Origin: Nostoc carneum NIES-2107
GTDB lineage: Bacteria; Cyanobacteriota; Cyanobacteriia; Cyanobacteriales; Nostocaceae
Length of the DNA stretch: 64,000 bases
Direction of reading: 5' to 3'
Assembly (NCBI GenBank): GCA_002368155.1
Contig: AP018180.1
Span: 4,263,380-4,327,379 of the forward strand
Numbering within the stretch: position 1 is the first letter of the stretch; each line of letters opens with the position of its first letter. Below are positions 30,553 through 42,121 of the stretch, one piece after another. Made by a program: the position numbers and the translations under genes. The notes beneath the pieces were generated by a model. That model made no database searches. It worked only from the letters and a program-made list of their open reading frames with translations, and had not been told where the DNA came from.

Positions 30553-30581
30553 TACCCTGCGGGAAGCCGCTACGCGTCTAC
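30553..30581. repeat. Small dispersed repeat copy (TAC..TAC type)
   Basis: Begins TACCCTGCGGGAAGCCGC and ends GCGTC-TAC. It matches the inserts in two tRNA genes at 40668-40693 and 40775-40800. Flanks here are GTAATTC repeats. Confidence 0.88.
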
Positions 30582-37361: not shown

Positions 37362-37380
37362 TTGAGGAGTGAATTCACTT

Positions 37381-37917
37381 ATGGAAGCTCAACCACAGAC
37401 TCAGAAACCACACATATTACAAAATTCGGTGGTCGTGTTCTCTAAGAACTACCTACCATTAGCACGGGTTAATATTAAACGAGCCATTGTGCTTTTAGTC
37501 ACCGGACAGGCAGAATCCTTAGAGTTCGGCAGCACTAAGCTTTGGGAAGTTCGCTCTCCCAGCTTTGTACTCAAAGTTCCCGAACACATTCGTCTAACAT
37601 TTGGCAATCCCGAACGTCATTGGAAAGTACCACCTGTCAATAGACGTGAAGTACTCAAACGTGATAGCCATACCTGCCAATACTGTGGAAGCACCAAGCG
37701 TCTCACCCTCGACCATGTAATTCCCCGTTCTAAAGGTGGGCAGCATACTTGGGACAACGTTGTTACAGCTTGTGAACGTTGTAACTCAACCAAGAGCGAT
37801 CGCCTACCACATGAAGCAGGAATGGTACTTAAAACCAAACCCAAAGCTCCAATCCACCCAGCTGTTGCATTTGCAGAACAGTTTTGGAATGCACAACGCC
37901 TTACTGAGAATGAGTAA
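37381..37917 (+). CDS. Small HNH endonuclease (PLMP-like N-terminus)
   Basis: 178 residues from ATG 37381, with GAGGAG eleven bases upstream. N-terminal VVVFSKNYLPLARVNIKRAIVLLVTGQAESLE is the family's beta-alpha module, reminiscent of the PLMP domain of IscB/IshB proteins. Then the HNH: VLKRDSHTCQYCGS with one Cys pair, LTLDHVIPRSKGG with the catalytic DH, and WDNVVTACERCNSTKSDR with the second Cys pair and Asn. The family is widespread in cyanobacteria and its role is not established. No RuvC domain. A structured, terminator-ended leader lies directly upstream. Confidence 0.9.
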   Translation: MEAQPQTQKPHILQNSVVVFSKNYLPLARVNIKRAIVLLVTGQAESLEFGSTKLWEVRSPSFVLKVPEHIRLTFGNPERHWKVPPVNRREVLKRDSHTCQYCGSTKRLTLDHVIPRSKGGQHTWDNVVTACERCNSTKSDRLPHEAGMVLKTKPKAPIHPAVAFAEQFWNAQRLTENE

Positions 37918-38149: not shown

Positions 38150-38200
38150 TGTAGTATACCCTTGACACTTTTGTAGTATTTATGTAGTATTAATGTAGTG
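38150..38200 (+). promoter_or_regulatory. tRNA-array promoter with TGTAGTAT direct repeats
   Basis: TTGACA at 38162-38167, a 17-base spacer, and TAGTAT at 38185-38190: a near-consensus sigma-70 promoter about 85 bases before the first tRNA. TGTAGTAT occurs at 38150, 38172 and 38183, with a TGTAGTG at 38194, so three copies overlap or flank the promoter boxes; these could be an operator. Confidence 0.75.
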
Positions 38201-38276: not shown

Positions 38277-38352
38277 GGGGGTGTAGCTTAGTCCGGTTTA
38301 AAGCAGTCGCCTGTCGAGCGAAAGACCGTGGGTTCAAATCCCATCATCCCCG
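38277..38352 (+). tRNA. tRNA-Asp(GTC)
   Basis: Acceptor GGGGGTG/CATCCCC, anticodon loop CTGTCGA, T loop TTCAAAT. First gene of the array; 3' CCA not encoded. Confidence 0.92.
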
Positions 38353-38358
38353 CCTTGT

Positions 38359-38433
38359 AGCCTTGTGGACAAGTAGATTAAGTCGCTCTGATTCTCAGTC
38401 AGAGAGAAGCGGGTGCAACTCCCGTCGAGGCTT
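38359..38433 (+). tRNA. tRNA-Glu(CTC), degenerate D and T loops
   Basis: Acceptor AGCCTTG/CGAGGCT, anticodon stem TCTGA/TCAGA with loop TTCTCAG. D loop lacks the usual GG and T loop is TGCAACT, so tertiary contacts may be weak. CTC is redundant where Glu(TTC) exists. Confidence 0.72.
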
Positions 38434-38441
38434 CTAAAAAT

Positions 38442-38516
38442 GTCCGAGTAGCCAAGTGGTAAGGCGTTGGTCTGCAAAATCAATCATCGTGGGTTCAATT
38501 CCCACCTCGGACTCCA
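38442..38516 (+). tRNA. tRNA-Cys(GCA)
   Basis: Acceptor GTCCGAG/CTCGGAC, anticodon loop CTGCAAA, T arm GTGGG/CCCAC; CCA encoded. Confidence 0.93.
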
Positions 38517-38521
38517 AACGT

Positions 38522-38596
38522 TGCAGTGTCACCTAATGGTAAGGTACTCGGCTCATAACCGAGAGTATGCGAGTTCAACTCTCGCCGCTGCGACCA
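38522..38596 (+). tRNA. tRNA-Met or Ile2 (CAT)
   Basis: Acceptor TGCAGTG/CGCTGCG with wobble pairs, anticodon stem CTCGG/CCGAG, loop CTCATAA; CCA encoded. No initiator features. Elongator Met and lysidine-modified Ile cannot be told apart by eye. Confidence 0.85.
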
Positions 38597-38599
38597 AAT

Positions 38600-38670
38600 G
38601 CAGGGATGGTGTAACGGCAGCATAAGGGTCTCCAAAACCTTTAGTCTAGGTTCAAATCCTAGTCTCTGCG
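38600..38670 (+). tRNA. tRNA-Trp(CCA)
   Basis: Acceptor GCAGGGA/TCTCTGC, anticodon loop CTCCAAA, T arm CTAGG/CCTAG. Confidence 0.9.
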
Positions 38671-38692
38671 TTCTACTGCGTGTCCTAACATG

Positions 38693-38759
38693 AGAAGCTT
38701 ACAAACTGGTTAATCGGTCTAAAACACCGAAGTAGGTTCGACTCCTACAGCCTCCGCCA
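38693..38759 (+). pseudogene. Degenerate tRNA-like element, loop CTAAAAC
   Basis: Intact anticodon stem TCGGT/ACCGA with loop CTAAAAC (anticodon would be AAA) and a good T arm GTAGG/CCTAC with CCA, but no normal D arm. The 3' acceptor AGCCTCC pairs poorly with the 5' side, yet perfectly with GGAGGCT downstream at 38765. An outer pair TGAGAAGCT (38691) / AGCTTCTCA (38781) encloses the whole. Confidence 0.6.
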
Positions 38760-38818
38760 AACCTGGAGGCTGTTAAAAACAGCTTCTCAAACTTACACGT
38801 GGTAGAAATTTCAATCTT

Positions 38819-38892
38819 GGTGCCGTAGGCAAATTGGTAAAGCCACCTGTCTTTCAAGCAGGAGATTGCGGGTTCAATTCCCGTCGGCACTG
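38819..38892 (+). tRNA. tRNA-Glu(TTC)
   Basis: Acceptor GGTGCCG/CGGCACT, anticodon stem CCTGT/GCAGG, loop CTTTCAA, T loop TTCAATT. Confidence 0.92.
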
Positions 38893-38904
38893 CTGACTTG
38901 AGTT

Positions 38905-38947
38905 GGGATGGCAGAGAGCAGGATAACTGGTCTCTCCATTCCTTTAT
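38905..38947 (+). terminator. Hairpin inside the tRNA array
   Basis: GGGATGG pairs with CCATTCC and AGAGA with TCTCT, followed by TTTATTT. It may be an internal terminator, a processing site or a tRNA relic. Confidence 0.4.
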
Positions 38948-38985
38948 TTCACCTAGAAATCTCAAGCCATTACTCAAAAATATAT

Positions 38986-39066
38986 GGGTCGGCTCGCCTA
39001 TTGGTGTAGGCAACGGTCTGTAAAACCGCCGCGTTTGCGTTGCTGGTTCAATTCCAGCCCGGCCCA
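38986..39066 (+). tRNA. tRNA-Tyr(GTA)
   Basis: Acceptor GGGTCGG/CCGGCCC, anticodon loop CTGTAAA and a proper long variable arm, as expected for bacterial Tyr. Confidence 0.92.
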
Positions 39067-39070
39067 TTTT

Positions 39071-39155
39071 GGAGAGATTGCTATTGGCAGGGCAAACTGT
39101 TTGCTAAACAGTCGTGGATGCAAGTCCACTGTGGGTTCAACTCCCTCTCTCTCCG
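39071..39155 (+). tRNA. tRNA-Ser(GCT)
   Basis: Acceptor GGAGAGA/TCTCTCC, anticodon stem ACTGT/ACAGT, loop TTGCTAA, and a long variable arm with GTGGA/TCCAC stem. Confidence 0.92.
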
Positions 39156-39161
39156 CCTTAT

Positions 39162-39236
39162 GAGAACGTGGTGTAACTGGATGAACACATCGGTCTACGA
39201 AACCGAAGAGTGGGGGTTCAAGTCCCTCCGTTCTCG
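39162..39236 (+). tRNA. tRNA-Arg(ACG)
   Basis: Acceptor GAGAACG/CGTTCTC, anticodon stem TCGGT/ACCGA, loop CTACGAA. A34 would normally be edited to inosine. Confidence 0.92.
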
Positions 39237-39242
39237 CCTTAT

Positions 39243-39316
39243 CCCCTGGTAGCTCAGTTGGTAGTAGCGCCTGTCTGAAGAACAGGAGGTCATCCGTTCA
39301 ATCCGGATCTGGGGGA
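39243..39316 (+). tRNA. tRNA-Phe(GAA)
   Basis: Acceptor CCCCTGG/CTGGGGG, anticodon stem CCTGT/ACAGG, loop CTGAAGA. One extra-base change disrupts the last D-stem pair. Confidence 0.9.
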
Positions 39317-39325
39317 CTGGCACAT

Positions 39326-39400
39326 TGCCCCATAGCTCAATGGCAGAGCGACGCGCTGTTAACGCGGGGGTTGTAGGTTCAAACCCTACTGGGGCAGCCA
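39326..39400 (+). tRNA. tRNA-Asn(GTT)
   Basis: Acceptor TGCCCCA/TGGGGCA, anticodon loop CTGTTAA, T loop TTCAAAC; CCA encoded. Confidence 0.93.
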
Positions 39401-39405
39401 TTCAT

Positions 39406-39482
39406 TGCCGAGTGGACGATATGGAAAGTCGCTGTGACTCTGAATCACAGAGATGTTGGTTCGACCCCAACCTCGGCAACCA
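39406..39482 (+). tRNA. tRNA-Gln(CTG)
   Basis: Acceptor TGCCGAG/CTCGGCA, anticodon stem TGTGA/TCACA, loop CTCTGAA; CCA encoded. The CTG anticodon is an addition to the usual TTG. Confidence 0.9.
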
Positions 39483-39487
39483 ATTAT

Positions 39488-39562
39488 TGGGAAGTAGGCG
39501 ACGTTGGCAAAGCCACCTGATTTTGACTCAGGATCTCGCGGGTTCGATTCCTGCCTTCCCAG
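39488..39562 (+). tRNA. tRNA-Gln(TTG)
   Basis: Acceptor TGGGAAG/CTTCCCA, anticodon stem CCTGA/TCAGG, loop TTTTGAC. Confidence 0.92.
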
Positions 39563-39590
39563 TTCTGCTTTGATAGAGCAGAAAAATTAT

Positions 39591-39671
39591 GCTCCTGTAG
39601 CCCAATTGGAAGAGGCGGCTGTCTCAAAAACAGTCTATTTTGTACGGGTTCGACTCCCGTCAGGAGTACCA
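39591..39671 (+). tRNA. tRNA-Leu(CAA) with short variable region
   Basis: Acceptor GCTCCTG/CAGGAGT, anticodon stem GCTGT/ACAGT, loop CTCAAAA; CCA encoded. The variable region is about nine unpaired bases instead of the long paired arm expected for bacterial Leu. Confidence 0.88.
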
Positions 39672-39672
39672 G

Positions 39673-39749
39673 CGGGATGTGGCGCAACTTGGTAGCGCGG
39701 CAGCTTTGGGAGCTGAAGGTTGCAGGTTCAAATCCTGCCATTCCGACCA
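39673..39749 (+). tRNA. tRNA-Pro(TGG)
   Basis: Acceptor CGGGATG/CATTCCG, loop TTTGGGA, T arm GCAGG/CCTGC; CCA encoded. It starts one base after the preceding tRNA. Confidence 0.92.
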
Positions 39750-39752
39750 TTT

Positions 39753-39826
39753 GCCCCTGTGACGTAATTGGAAACCGTCGCTCGTTTAGACCGAGTGTTT
39801 TGCAGGTTCGACTCCTGTCAGGGGTA
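39753..39826 (+). tRNA. tRNA-Leu(TAG) with class I variable loop
   Basis: Acceptor GCCCCTG/CAGGGGT, anticodon stem GCTCG/CGAGT, loop TTTAGAC; the variable region is only GTTTT. Confidence 0.88.
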
Positions 39827-39919
39827 CTGAATCTTTGTTTGTACTACTTGCTTTCGCTTAGTGACAGACATTAGATGAGTTTTTTTAGCGTGTATTAGAA
39901 ACTGGAGGAATGAAAAGAC

Positions 39920-40006
39920 ATGAAATTTTCAACAAAAAAGACCAAATTAGGCAGTGAATTAGCGAAAACATTCTCAGGAATTTATTTGCAGTCAACTGCT
40001 CTTTAA
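39920..40006 (+). CDS. Possible 28-aa ORF inside the tRNA array
   Basis: ATG to TAA, 28 codons (starts MKFSTKKTKLGS), in the only sizeable gap of the array (39827-40073). GGAGG lies about 11 bases upstream, which is the reason for listing it. A basic N-terminal half precedes a mildly hydrophobic end (FSGIYLQSTAL). No family recognised. A second ATG right after the GGAGG opens a different 15-codon frame. It may be chance. Confidence 0.25.
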   Translation: MKFSTKKTKLGSELAKTFSGIYLQSTAL

Positions 40007-40073
40007 ACATAAAAAAATGTACGAGATTGGAAAACCTTTTAGGGGTTACTGCGCTAAACAAAGGTTAATTCAA

Positions 40074-40154
40074 GCTCCCGTGGCGGAATAGGTAGACGCA
40101 CTCAGTTGAGCGCTGAGTTTCTTGTTGCAGGTTCAAATCCTGTCGGGAGTACCA
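40074..40154 (+). tRNA. tRNA-Leu(GAG) with short variable region
   Basis: Acceptor GCTCCCG/CGGGAGT, anticodon stem CTCAG/CTGAG, loop TTGAGCG; nine-base unpaired variable region; CCA encoded. Confidence 0.9.
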
Positions 40155-40158
40155 AATT

Positions 40159-40233
40159 GGGTCGTTGGCAGAGCGGATATGCAGCTACCTTTTAAGTAGA
40201 CTTATCCAGGTTCAACCCCTGGGCGACCCACCA
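40159..40233 (+). tRNA. tRNA-Lys(TTT)
   Basis: Acceptor GGGTCGT/GCGACCC, loop CTTTTAA, T arm CCAGG/CCTGG; CCA encoded. Confidence 0.93.
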
Positions 40234-40239
40234 AATTAT

Positions 40240-40313
40240 GCCCCTGTGACCCAATTGGAAGAGGTGCCAAACTTAAAATTTGGAAGTTGCTGGTTCAAAT
40301 CCAGTCAGGGGTA
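40240..40313 (+). tRNA. tRNA-Leu(TAA) with class I variable loop
   Basis: Acceptor GCCCCTG/CAGGGGT, anticodon stem CCAAA/TTTGG, loop CTTAAAA; the variable region is AAGTT. No group I intron, unlike the usual cyanobacterial tRNA-Leu(UAA) gene. Confidence 0.9.
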
Positions 40314-40330
40314 TGGCTGAGATGGAGCGG

Positions 40331-40354
40331 GTAGTCACTCTTTTGGGTGACTAC
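40331..40354 (+). other. Hairpin between tRNA-Leu(TAA) and tRNA-Thr
   Basis: GTAGTCAC/GTGACTAC stem in a 66-base gap. It looks like a surviving anticodon-arm-like relic of a lost tRNA or a spacer hairpin. Confidence 0.35.
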
Positions 40355-40379
40355 AATTTATACTTTCAGATCCACAAAT

Positions 40380-40456
40380 GCTGGTGTAGCTCAATCTGGC
40401 AGAGCAACTGATTTGTAATCAGTAGGTTGCAAGTTCAACTCCTGTCACCAGCTCCA
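40380..40456 (+). tRNA. tRNA-Thr(TGT)
   Basis: Acceptor GCTGGTG/CACCAGC, anticodon stem ACTGA/TCAGT, loop TTTGTAA; one mismatch in the T stem; CCA encoded. Confidence 0.92.
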
Positions 40457-40460
40457 AAAT

Positions 40461-40534
40461 GCGATCGTGGTGTAAAGGCAGCATCAGAGTCTTCCAAACT
40501 CACGGTACGAGTTCAATTCTCGTCGATCGCTCCA
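40461..40534 (+). tRNA. tRNA-Gly(TCC)
   Basis: Acceptor GCGATCG/CGATCGC, anticodon loop CTTCCAA, T arm ACGAG/CTCGT; CCA encoded. Confidence 0.93.
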
Positions 40535-40539
40535 ATAAT

Positions 40540-40610
40540 GCGGATGTGGTGTAAGGGTAACACTGGAGTATGCCAAGCTTCAGATACGAGTTCAAATCTC
40601 GTCTTCCGCT
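40540..40610 (+). tRNA. tRNA-Gly(GCC)
   Basis: Acceptor GCGGATG/CTTCCGC with one T-T mismatch, anticodon stem GGAGT/GCTTC, loop ATGCCAA. Confidence 0.88.
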
Positions 40611-40615
40611 CTCGT

Positions 40616-40716
40616 AGCCCTGTAACTCAGTGGGAGAGTGCCTCTCTTACAAAGAGGAAGTAGCGGGTACCCTGCGGGAAGCCGCTCCGCGTCTACAATC
40701 CCTGCTAGGGCTACCA
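40616..40716 (+). tRNA. tRNA-Val(TAC) interrupted in the T loop
   Basis: Acceptor AGCCCTG/TAGGGCT, D stem ACTC/GAGT, anticodon stem CCTCT/AGAGG, loop CTTACAA, CCA encoded. The T stem GCGGG/CCTGC is intact, but the loop holds a 26-base dispersed repeat at 40668-40693. Without it the loop would read TACAATC. Confidence 0.88.
40668..40693 (+). repeat. Small dispersed repeat inside tRNA-Val
   Basis: Same element as 30553-30578; flanked by TAC on both sides; contains the hairpin GCGG-GAAG-CCGC. Confidence 0.9.
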
Positions 40717-40722
40717 ATTTAT

Positions 40723-40820
40723 GGGAGTGTCGCCTAATGGATGGGCATCGATCTTCTAAATCGACCTATGTAGGTACCCTGCGGGAAGCCGCTGCGCGTC
40801 TACAAGTCCTACCACTCCTG
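40723..40820 (+). tRNA. tRNA-Arg(TCT) interrupted in the T loop
   Basis: Acceptor GGGAGTG/CACTCCT, anticodon stem TCGAT/ATCGA, loop CTTCTAA, T stem GTAGG/CCTAC. The T loop holds the same 26-base repeat as tRNA-Val at the same position, 40775-40800, leaving TACAAGT if removed. Confidence 0.88.
40775..40800 (+). repeat. Small dispersed repeat inside tRNA-Arg
   Basis: Differs from the tRNA-Val copy by one base (CTGCG against CTCCG); TAC flanks on both sides. Confidence 0.9.
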
Positions 40821-40825
40821 CTTAT

Positions 40826-40899
40826 GGGGTCATAGCTCAACTGGCTAGAGCATCCGCCTTGCAAGCGGAAGGTTAGGGGTTCAAATCCCCTTGATTCCA
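40826..40899 (+). tRNA. tRNA-Ala(TGC)
   Basis: Acceptor GGGGTCA/TGATTCC, anticodon stem TCCGC/GCGGA, loop CTTGCAA, canonical D and T arms. Confidence 0.93.
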
Positions 40900-40903
40900 C
40901 TGT

Positions 40904-40979
40904 GGTGTCTGAAGCCAAAGCGGTCGCGGCGCTGGTTTGTGGAACCAGTCATTAGGGAGTTCAAGCCTCCTCAGACACC
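40904..40979 (+). tRNA. tRNA-His(GTG)
   Basis: Acceptor GTGTCTG/CAGACAC with the His-specific extra G at -1 (40904) facing C73; anticodon stem CTGGT/ACCAG, loop TTGTGGA. Confidence 0.92.
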
Positions 40980-40986
40980 CCTGAAT

Positions 40987-41069
40987 GGAAGATGCCGCTG
41001 AATGGTCGGCAACTGGTCTTGAAAACCAGGGTACAGTCAACTGTAGGGGTTCGATTCCTCCATCTTCCG
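40987..41069 (+). tRNA. tRNA-Ser(TGA)
   Basis: Acceptor GGAAGAT/ATCTTCC, anticodon stem CTGGT/ACCAG, loop CTTGAAA, long variable arm with ACAGT/ACTGT stem. Confidence 0.92.
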
Positions 41070-41073
41070 CCTT

Positions 41074-41145
41074 CCACCAGAAGCCGAAAAGTGAGGCGCT
41101 GTGCTGATAACACAGATACAGGAGGGGCAGTACCTTCCTGGTGGA
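41074..41145 (+). tRNA. tRNA-Ile(GAT), degenerate D and T loops
   Basis: Acceptor CCACCAG/CTGGTGG, anticodon stem CTGTG/CACAG, loop CTGATAA. The T loop is GGCAGTA rather than TTCRANY and the D loop lacks GG. Last tRNA of the array. Confidence 0.75.
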
Positions 41146-41241
41146 TTAGCATGATCAAAACATACCTTGTAACCAGAGTACTGGACTTAGAAGTCTATTC
41201 GGCTAAAATCTATCAAGTAAGAGCGCGCGAGGCCAACGAGA

Positions 41242-42056: not shown

Positions 42057-42121
42057 GTAGGATGGGTTAGCGATAGCGTAACCCATGCGGGTGTTGGGTT
42101 TCGTTCCTCAACCCAACCTAC
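42057..42121. repeat. Compound dispersed palindrome
   Basis: Starts GTAGGATGGGTTAGCGAT and ends AACCCAACCTAC. Two nested hairpins: GGGTTA/TAACCC and GTTGGGTT/AACCCAAC. Confidence 0.85.

Follow-up and report, generated by a model that had tools for sequence, protein, structure and literature searches.

Among the closest known systems are the small dispersed repeats (SDRs) of Nostoc, which reportedly measure 21–27 nucleotides (nt), occur in many dispersed copies in heterocystous cyanobacteria, form short hairpins backed by compensatory changes, and nest in other repeats as well as in themselves. They were reported by Elhai et al. 2008 (cited in PMC4390886, PMC3116915 and PMC2884548), and one of them, SDR5, inserts at an exact place in the HIP1 sequence (PMC4390886). 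A second point of reference is the long array of transfer RNA (tRNA) genes, or trn operon, of Anabaena, in which a TGTAGTAT motif overlaps the −10 box and which is kept down by the repressor TrcR in standard culture (PMC10272220). Here we describe a stretch of 64,000 nt of Nostoc carneum NIES-2107, called the window throughout (positions 4263380-4327379 of an 8.35-Mb contig, in a genome of 9.36 Mb), in which two neighbouring genes of a long tRNA array, tRNA-Val(TAC) and tRNA-Arg(TCT), are each interrupted in the T loop by a 27-nt repeat. The two genes and their inserts are as follows.

40616..40716, plus strand: tRNA-Val(TAC) with T-loop insert; the Rfam tRNA model gives 45.1 bits at 40616-40713.
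40669..40695, plus strand: 27-nt element that replaces T55 of the Val T loop, with T54 at 40668 and C56 at 40696 on either side.
40723..40821, plus strand: tRNA-Arg(TCT) with T-loop insert, missed by both ARAGORN and Rfam when unaltered.
40776..40802, plus strand: 27-nt element that replaces T55 of the Arg T loop, with T54 at 40775 and C56 at 40803 on either side.

In both genes the T loop has changed from TTC to T[27 nt]C, with T55 replaced by A-N25-A and a net gain of 26 nt. The original prediction, made from the letters of this DNA, had placed a 26-base insert after base 53; the insert is real and lies where it was said to lie, but it follows base 54 and consists of 27 nt that take the place of T55. 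The TAC triplets that had been read as flanks on both sides are likewise present as letters, but the first is T54 plus the element's initial AC, and the second is the element's final TA plus C56. On the unaltered window ARAGORN called neither of the interrupted genes, and the Rfam tRNA model found the interrupted Val and not the Arg. With T[27]C taken as TTC, ARAGORN calls both Val(TAC) and Arg(TCT). A search for intact copies found uninterrupted, ARAGORN-called genes for both isoacceptors elsewhere in the same genome (loci L021 and L026). Assembly error, which had been named as a possible cause, is very unlikely, because many other assemblies show the same structure (46 regions).

The first point to note is that, judged from the sequences, nearly all copies of the element inside tRNA arrays stand in the T loop (T54-T55-C56-R57), and that they do so in many tRNAs and many genomes. 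With T-arm-like flanks and <=1 mismatch, the element is present in 53/217 genomes of the family and in 21/388 order-level genomes, a sample which includes part of the family; this flank pattern also lets in some non-tRNA sites. In the fetched regions, which covered part of the listed matches, no copy was found in a dispersed, standard tRNA gene. ARAGORN called a tRNA at 0/68 of the copies in the 46 fetched regions when these were left unaltered, and at 58/68 when T[27]C was read as TTC. The ten remaining sites comprise three in long tRNA-like genes (L138, L140 and L150), a non-tRNA site (L151) and six T arms belonging to uncalled genes, with visible damage or a double hit in some. A 20-nt sibling of the element, sought with the same flanks and threshold, is present in 83/217 family genomes, part of its matches being dispersed non-tRNA sites judging by the listed flanks.

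A search for the element in other tRNA T loops found it widely: across 51 non-duplicate arrays with 1171 tRNAs, 88 tRNAs carry a T-loop insert, either the element or a sibling. The inserts fall under 27 of 41 tRNA labels, 24 with a named anticodon and three without, and two order-level arrays outside the 51 (L175 and L176) add inserts in Arg(GCG) and Ser(CGA). Of these 51 arrays, 41 are the window itself or were selected for a 27-nt T-arm match, and ten are named plasmids picked by array similarity alone. Three of the ten similarity-picked plasmid arrays have T-loop inserts, with two in L211, one in L212 and one in L217 (two gaps in the gap scan). Three more of the 13 named plasmids, those of NIES-22, NIES-4101 and PCC 7524, also have inserts, but these are duplicates of regions selected for a match.

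In L138 (1700-2330), L140 and L150 the long tRNA-like genes stand in tandem and have in common an inserted sequence near the anticodon (...CTTGCCTGCAAAGGCCGACGAATGAGGGTTATCG..., in the anticodon region), and one such gene per locus carries the 27-nt element in its T loop. Four of them, in L138 and L150, pass the Rfam tRNA cut-off, at lengths of 121-140 nt and with 38.9-51.2 bits, whereas none in L140 does so, though the sequence is alike; on L138 no Rfam family besides tRNA fits. By eye, a neighbouring long tRNA-like gene in L150 has a smaller T-loop insert of 16 nt, T[ACCCTTCGGGCGTCTA]C.

To express the specificity as a proportion of available sites, we counted TTYR sites in the arrays after the inserts had been removed. 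In T loops, 89/1106 sites are filled, compared with 0/460 in other parts of the tRNAs and 1/226 in anticodon loops, where the lone insert is in Glu(TTC) of L137, whose anticodon is itself TTC. Spacer and unannotated sites are filled in 7/1219 cases, each of which, on reading by eye, is the T arm of an uncalled gene; two more inserts lie outside the array spans. The TTC loop of another element copy also carries an insertion. T loops that read TGC are never filled (0/57, p 0.018), these coming from two isoacceptors only, 36 Glu(CTC) and 21 Met(CAT). Since 41 of the arrays either are the window or were selected with a 27-nt T-arm match, the cleanest specificity figure comes from siblings of 20-22 nt, which played no part in selecting arrays: 30/32 of these are in T arms (26 in called T loops and four by eye, one of the four outside the span) and 2/32 are on the other strand.

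A general sequence preference was considered and is not enough to account for the choice of T loops. With a target weight matrix built from 38 non-tRNA targets, the median score is 5.1 for filled T loops and 4.7 for empty ones, against 2.95 for other array sites on the same strand and 2.2 on the other strand. However, 874 other array sites score at or above the median filled T loop, some of these being T arms of uncalled tRNAs. The TTC-loop targeting put forward in the original prediction is therefore upheld, and can be extended to a target T-T-Y-R with a strong T-loop preference inside arrays.

The properties of the element itself were derived from copies outside tRNA genes as well as within them. 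The window contains two such sites, the first of which confirms, from the sequence, the intergenic copy that had been noted at 30553-30581.

30554..30580, plus strand: intergenic element copy, flanked by T (30553) and C (30581).
42093..42114, plus strand: empty copy (GTTGGGTTTCGTTCCTCAACCC) of a larger repeat, showing the TTC that precedes insertion; compared with copies of the repeat that are filled with the element at several other places in the genome.

The larger repeat reads GTTGGGTT-T-CGTTCC when empty, as here, and GTTGGGTT-[27 nt]-CGTTCC when filled elsewhere, and many element copies are nested in this manner within larger repeats whose empty form is known. The genome holds 8 copies when one free position is allowed and 26 with <=3 mismatches, as against 0 for the reversed pattern, which supports the earlier description of a mobile dispersed repeat. 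In the family, the full-length element pattern occurs in 143/217 genomes, and the reversed control in 0. Whilst the main element is 27 nt long, siblings range from 20 to 28 nt and nested copies measure 48 and 53 nt; the commonest sibling at the same T-loop place, from a scan of array gaps, is ACCCTTCGGGAAGCAAGCTA (20 nt). Copies of the element within the element were seen in L148 and L155, and partial second copies, in the same orientation and close to the element, in L243 and L290.

To define the target, flanks were collected from 91 sites of this and other genomes, taken regardless of what the flanks were and amounting to 48 distinct contexts. T precedes the element in 45 of these; in 46 a pyrimidine (34 C, 12 T) follows it, and in 46 the second base after it is a purine. 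This comparison shows that the target is T-T-Y-R, that its second T is lost and that the element stands in one orientation, the identity of the lost base as T being taken from the tRNAs and from the repeats with known empty forms. Covariation over 176 copies that differ in context (CG in 133 and TA in 39 at pair 3-9; GC in 152 and AT in 15 at pair 16-22) likewise shows two 3-base-pair (bp) hairpins with triloops, kept by compensatory changes. The single hairpin proposed earlier, GCGG-GAAG-CCGC, is intact in just 64/176 copies, and the covariation favours the other two in its place. Non-tRNA copies were also noted in other families of the order (L097, L098 and L099), where the empty site would form a minihelix with the loop TTCGATG, much like a T arm.

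Some genes are filled in several arrays, namely Leu(CAA) in 10, Tyr(GTA) in 8, Leu(CAG) in 7, Cys(GCA) in 7 and Val(TAC) in 6. Such a pattern would be expected if the insert were an ancestral part of the tRNA, or if it had spread from T loop to T loop by gene conversion, and some insertions common to related genomes may have been inherited. As a general explanation, however, we regard this as very improbable. The presence of the insert is patchy, different element variants stand side by side, and there are empty orthologues that are identical, or nearly so, outside the insert. In L136, Val(TAC) is filled and Arg(TCT) is empty, and this Arg differs from the Arg of the window at one other base; the Arg of L142 has the same sequence as that of L136, but is filled, with another variant. 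Similarly, Leu(CAA) genes that are identical outside the insert are filled in L161, L164 and L165 and empty in L154 and L155. The mean identity of the 27-nt element is 0.921 within arrays and 0.914 between arrays, and so there is no signal of local gene conversion in this comparison. Because the variants differ and empty orthologues lie one base apart, the data point to repeated independent insertion, and disfavour both the gene conversion between Val and Arg that had been suggested and an origin of the insert as an ancestral part of the tRNA.

What the insertion does to the tRNA is suggested by its position. A tRNA without U55 and with a T loop of 33 nt is unlikely to adopt the ordinary tertiary fold, and the interrupted tRNAs are probably non-functional. 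As such a molecule is unlikely to serve translation, the main effect of the insert would be to knock out its array copy. Mismatches in the T stem show a slight excess in inserted genes (12/88 vs 68/1082, p 0.015; p 0.029 for the same isoacceptors), with 6/12 of the mismatch cases coming from Leu(CAG). Decay of the inserted genes was considered as well and not adopted, this weak excess in the T stem being the one sign of it. The arrays also bear damage of other kinds: there are annotated transposase genes inside two named arrays, and the Val gene of L172 is without its 5′ part.

Taken together, these results make it probable, in our judgement, that the two genes are interrupted by a very small mobile repeat of the SDR type, one that is non-autonomous, has the target T-T-Y-R and a strong T-loop preference, and is tolerated in the spare tRNAs of the arrays. 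T loops may be favoured since the invariant TTCR is presented there in an exposed loop, whether of the transcribed tRNA or of single-stranded DNA. Arrays would retain insertions owing to the redundancy and usual repression of their tRNAs, and selection would remove hits from housekeeping tRNAs. The survival of the hits would thus be explained by a spare and mostly silent array.

Several observations weigh against this explanation. In the ten arrays picked without regard to the element, just 4/225 tRNAs are filled, and on the opposite strand 2 of ~3076 sites within the array spans are filled as well (by eye, the case in L172 is clean and that in L166 unclear). Structural targeting is apparent at tRNAs alone, because the empty non-tRNA sites show no general hairpin preference: at 43 such sites it was absent in each of nine settings (one-sided p 0.90-1.0). 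Stems of at least 5 bp were commoner at non-tRNA sites than in controls in the six larger-loop settings (e.g. 6/43 vs 5.4%), whereas there were none in the three settings with loops up to 7, and hairpin targeting is thus unsupported as a general rule outside tRNAs. The other sites have no sense bias relative to neighbouring open reading frames (10 vs 13), which is unhelpful to a route through RNA. In addition, pairing in the acceptor and anticodon stems is as good in inserted tRNAs as in uninserted ones; because these stems remain well paired, it is likely that the inserts are often young or that the genes are still of some use. Part of the pattern could also come from selection for the position that does least harm.

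In its strongest form, this last point becomes a model with no T-loop targeting at all, in which insertion takes place at any TTYR and selection retains those T-loop insertions that leave a working tRNA. The intact acceptor and anticodon stems fit such a model, as does the fact that no other part of the called tRNAs is filled, bar the one anticodon loop. However, U55 is gone and the loop is 33 nt long, T-stem mismatches are more frequent in the inserted genes, the arrays tolerate other damage, and the 1219 spacer and unannotated sites are filled only at the seven T arms of uncalled genes; we therefore consider selection without targeting to be quite improbable. Homing at the RNA level, in which an element RNA joins the T loop of a tRNA precursor and returns as complementary DNA (cDNA) by recombination with the array, is possible but in our judgement less likely than not. 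It would account for the sense orientation of nearly all in-array copies, for the exact T-loop site in many tRNAs, and for the invasion of an anticodon loop reading TTC and of the TTC loop of another element copy; RNA intermediates were reportedly proposed for SDRs by Elhai et al. 2008. On the other hand, encoded CCA, which was tried as a mark of mature-tRNA cDNA, is no commoner in inserted genes (29/88 vs 284/831), non-tRNA sites lack a sense bias, and in Anabaena the corresponding array stays repressed under standard culture (PMC10272220).

Insertion at the DNA level, with the extruded hairpin of a T arm as the substrate of a single-strand transposase like those of IS200/IS605 or RAYTs, appears somewhat unlikely. 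The target loses one T, which is not known to be the rule for IS200/IS605 insertions, there is no general hairpin preference outside tRNAs, and the element has two tiny hairpins, not one palindrome. Against this, the element has a single orientation and is without target duplication, and the genome encodes four Y1 transposase domains (a genome-wide count). Moreover, its reverse complement starts with GTAG, the tag of REP elements, which RAYTs are believed to mobilise (PMC3733652). Insertion through RNA, insertion by a single-strand DNA transposase and filtering by selection are all possible, and the loss of one T per insertion is a fixed feature that every model must meet. The most far-reaching version, in which a 20-27 nt RNA element homes, alone or with a host enzyme, into the T loops of tRNA precursors, swaps out U55 and returns to the genome, seems to us unlikely. 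If true, we would know of no smaller element that moves at the RNA level and of no earlier one whose home site is the T loop.

The array in which the two interrupted genes lie, and the features upstream of it, are as follows.

38277..41147, plus strand: long tRNA gene array of the L-array type, with 27 tRNAs called by ARAGORN once both inserts are replaced by T.
38150..38190, plus strand: three TGTAGTAT motifs 5′ of the array (at 38150, 38172 and 38183), assigned by sequence match alone.
37369..37917, plus strand: HNH-like open reading frame 5′ of the array, named by eye from its residues and position, without a family search.

With its 27 tRNAs, the window array belongs with the L-arrays or trn operons, which are defined by more than 20 clustered supernumerary tRNA genes, and the named relatives of the window, by array and element, are filamentous cyanobacteria. 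Separate genes for Val(TAC), Arg(TCT) and many other isoacceptors are present in the genome outside the array. The TGTAGTAT motifs resemble the TrcR site that, in the Anabaena trn operon, overlies the −10 box, and are putative sites for a similar repressor. In the place of the HNH-like open reading frame, 9/13 named plasmid arrays have an annotated HNH endonuclease and 3/13 a hypothetical gene. At the end of the array (41072-41147) there is, by eye and without an ARAGORN call, an Ile(GAT)-like tRNA with the odd T loop GGCAGTA. Elsewhere in the genome, L190 (C1 ~951119-951193) holds a tRNA with the anticodon CTA, called Pyl by ARAGORN, and the T loop TGC, which is possibly an amber suppressor or a decayed array-type tRNA.

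The T loop is among the most invariant structures in biology, and here a repeat of ~27 nt finds it repeatedly in different tRNAs; the preference points to an unexplained homing on the tRNA T loop. The filled and empty T-loop sites, of which public genomes hold dozens, provide a natural, countable assay for how such tiny elements move. There is also a consequence for annotation. With not one of the 68 insert sites examined called by ARAGORN, it is easy to miss interrupted genes in long arrays, and the numbers of functioning array tRNAs may have to be corrected.

In the literature searched, the coverage of which was incomplete, we met no report of T-loop inserts, and we do not claim that none is in print. 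Comparison with known systems is nevertheless instructive. Like a tRNA intron, the element is extra sequence inside a tRNA gene, but unlike an intron it is patchy in its presence; an intron was rejected as an explanation, as excision of any continuous stretch leaves TAC, and not TTC, in the T loop. The resemblance to SDRs extends to a length of ~20-27 nt, dispersal (here in 143/217 family genomes), compensated short hairpins, nesting and a precise site. The insertion of SDR5 in HIP1 (PMC4390886) gives a precedent for such precision at another site, whereas the element described here inserts at T-T-Y-R with the loss of one T and with a strong preference for the tRNA T loop. With the REP/GTAG repeats and their RAYTs (PMC3733652) it shares a short hairpin DNA, a possible transposase-driven spread and GTAG at one end, the reverse complement reading GTAGACGC... 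in copies followed by C; it differs in having two 3-bp hairpins in place of a single-stem palindrome. Finally, the array is like the trn operon of Anabaena PCC 7120 (PMC10272220) in its 26-27 clustered supernumerary tRNA genes, by sequence match in the upstream TGTAGTAT motif, and in the HNH gene, which adjoins 9/13 of the named arrays examined here; the difference is that several tRNA genes of the window and its relatives have mobile repeats inside them.
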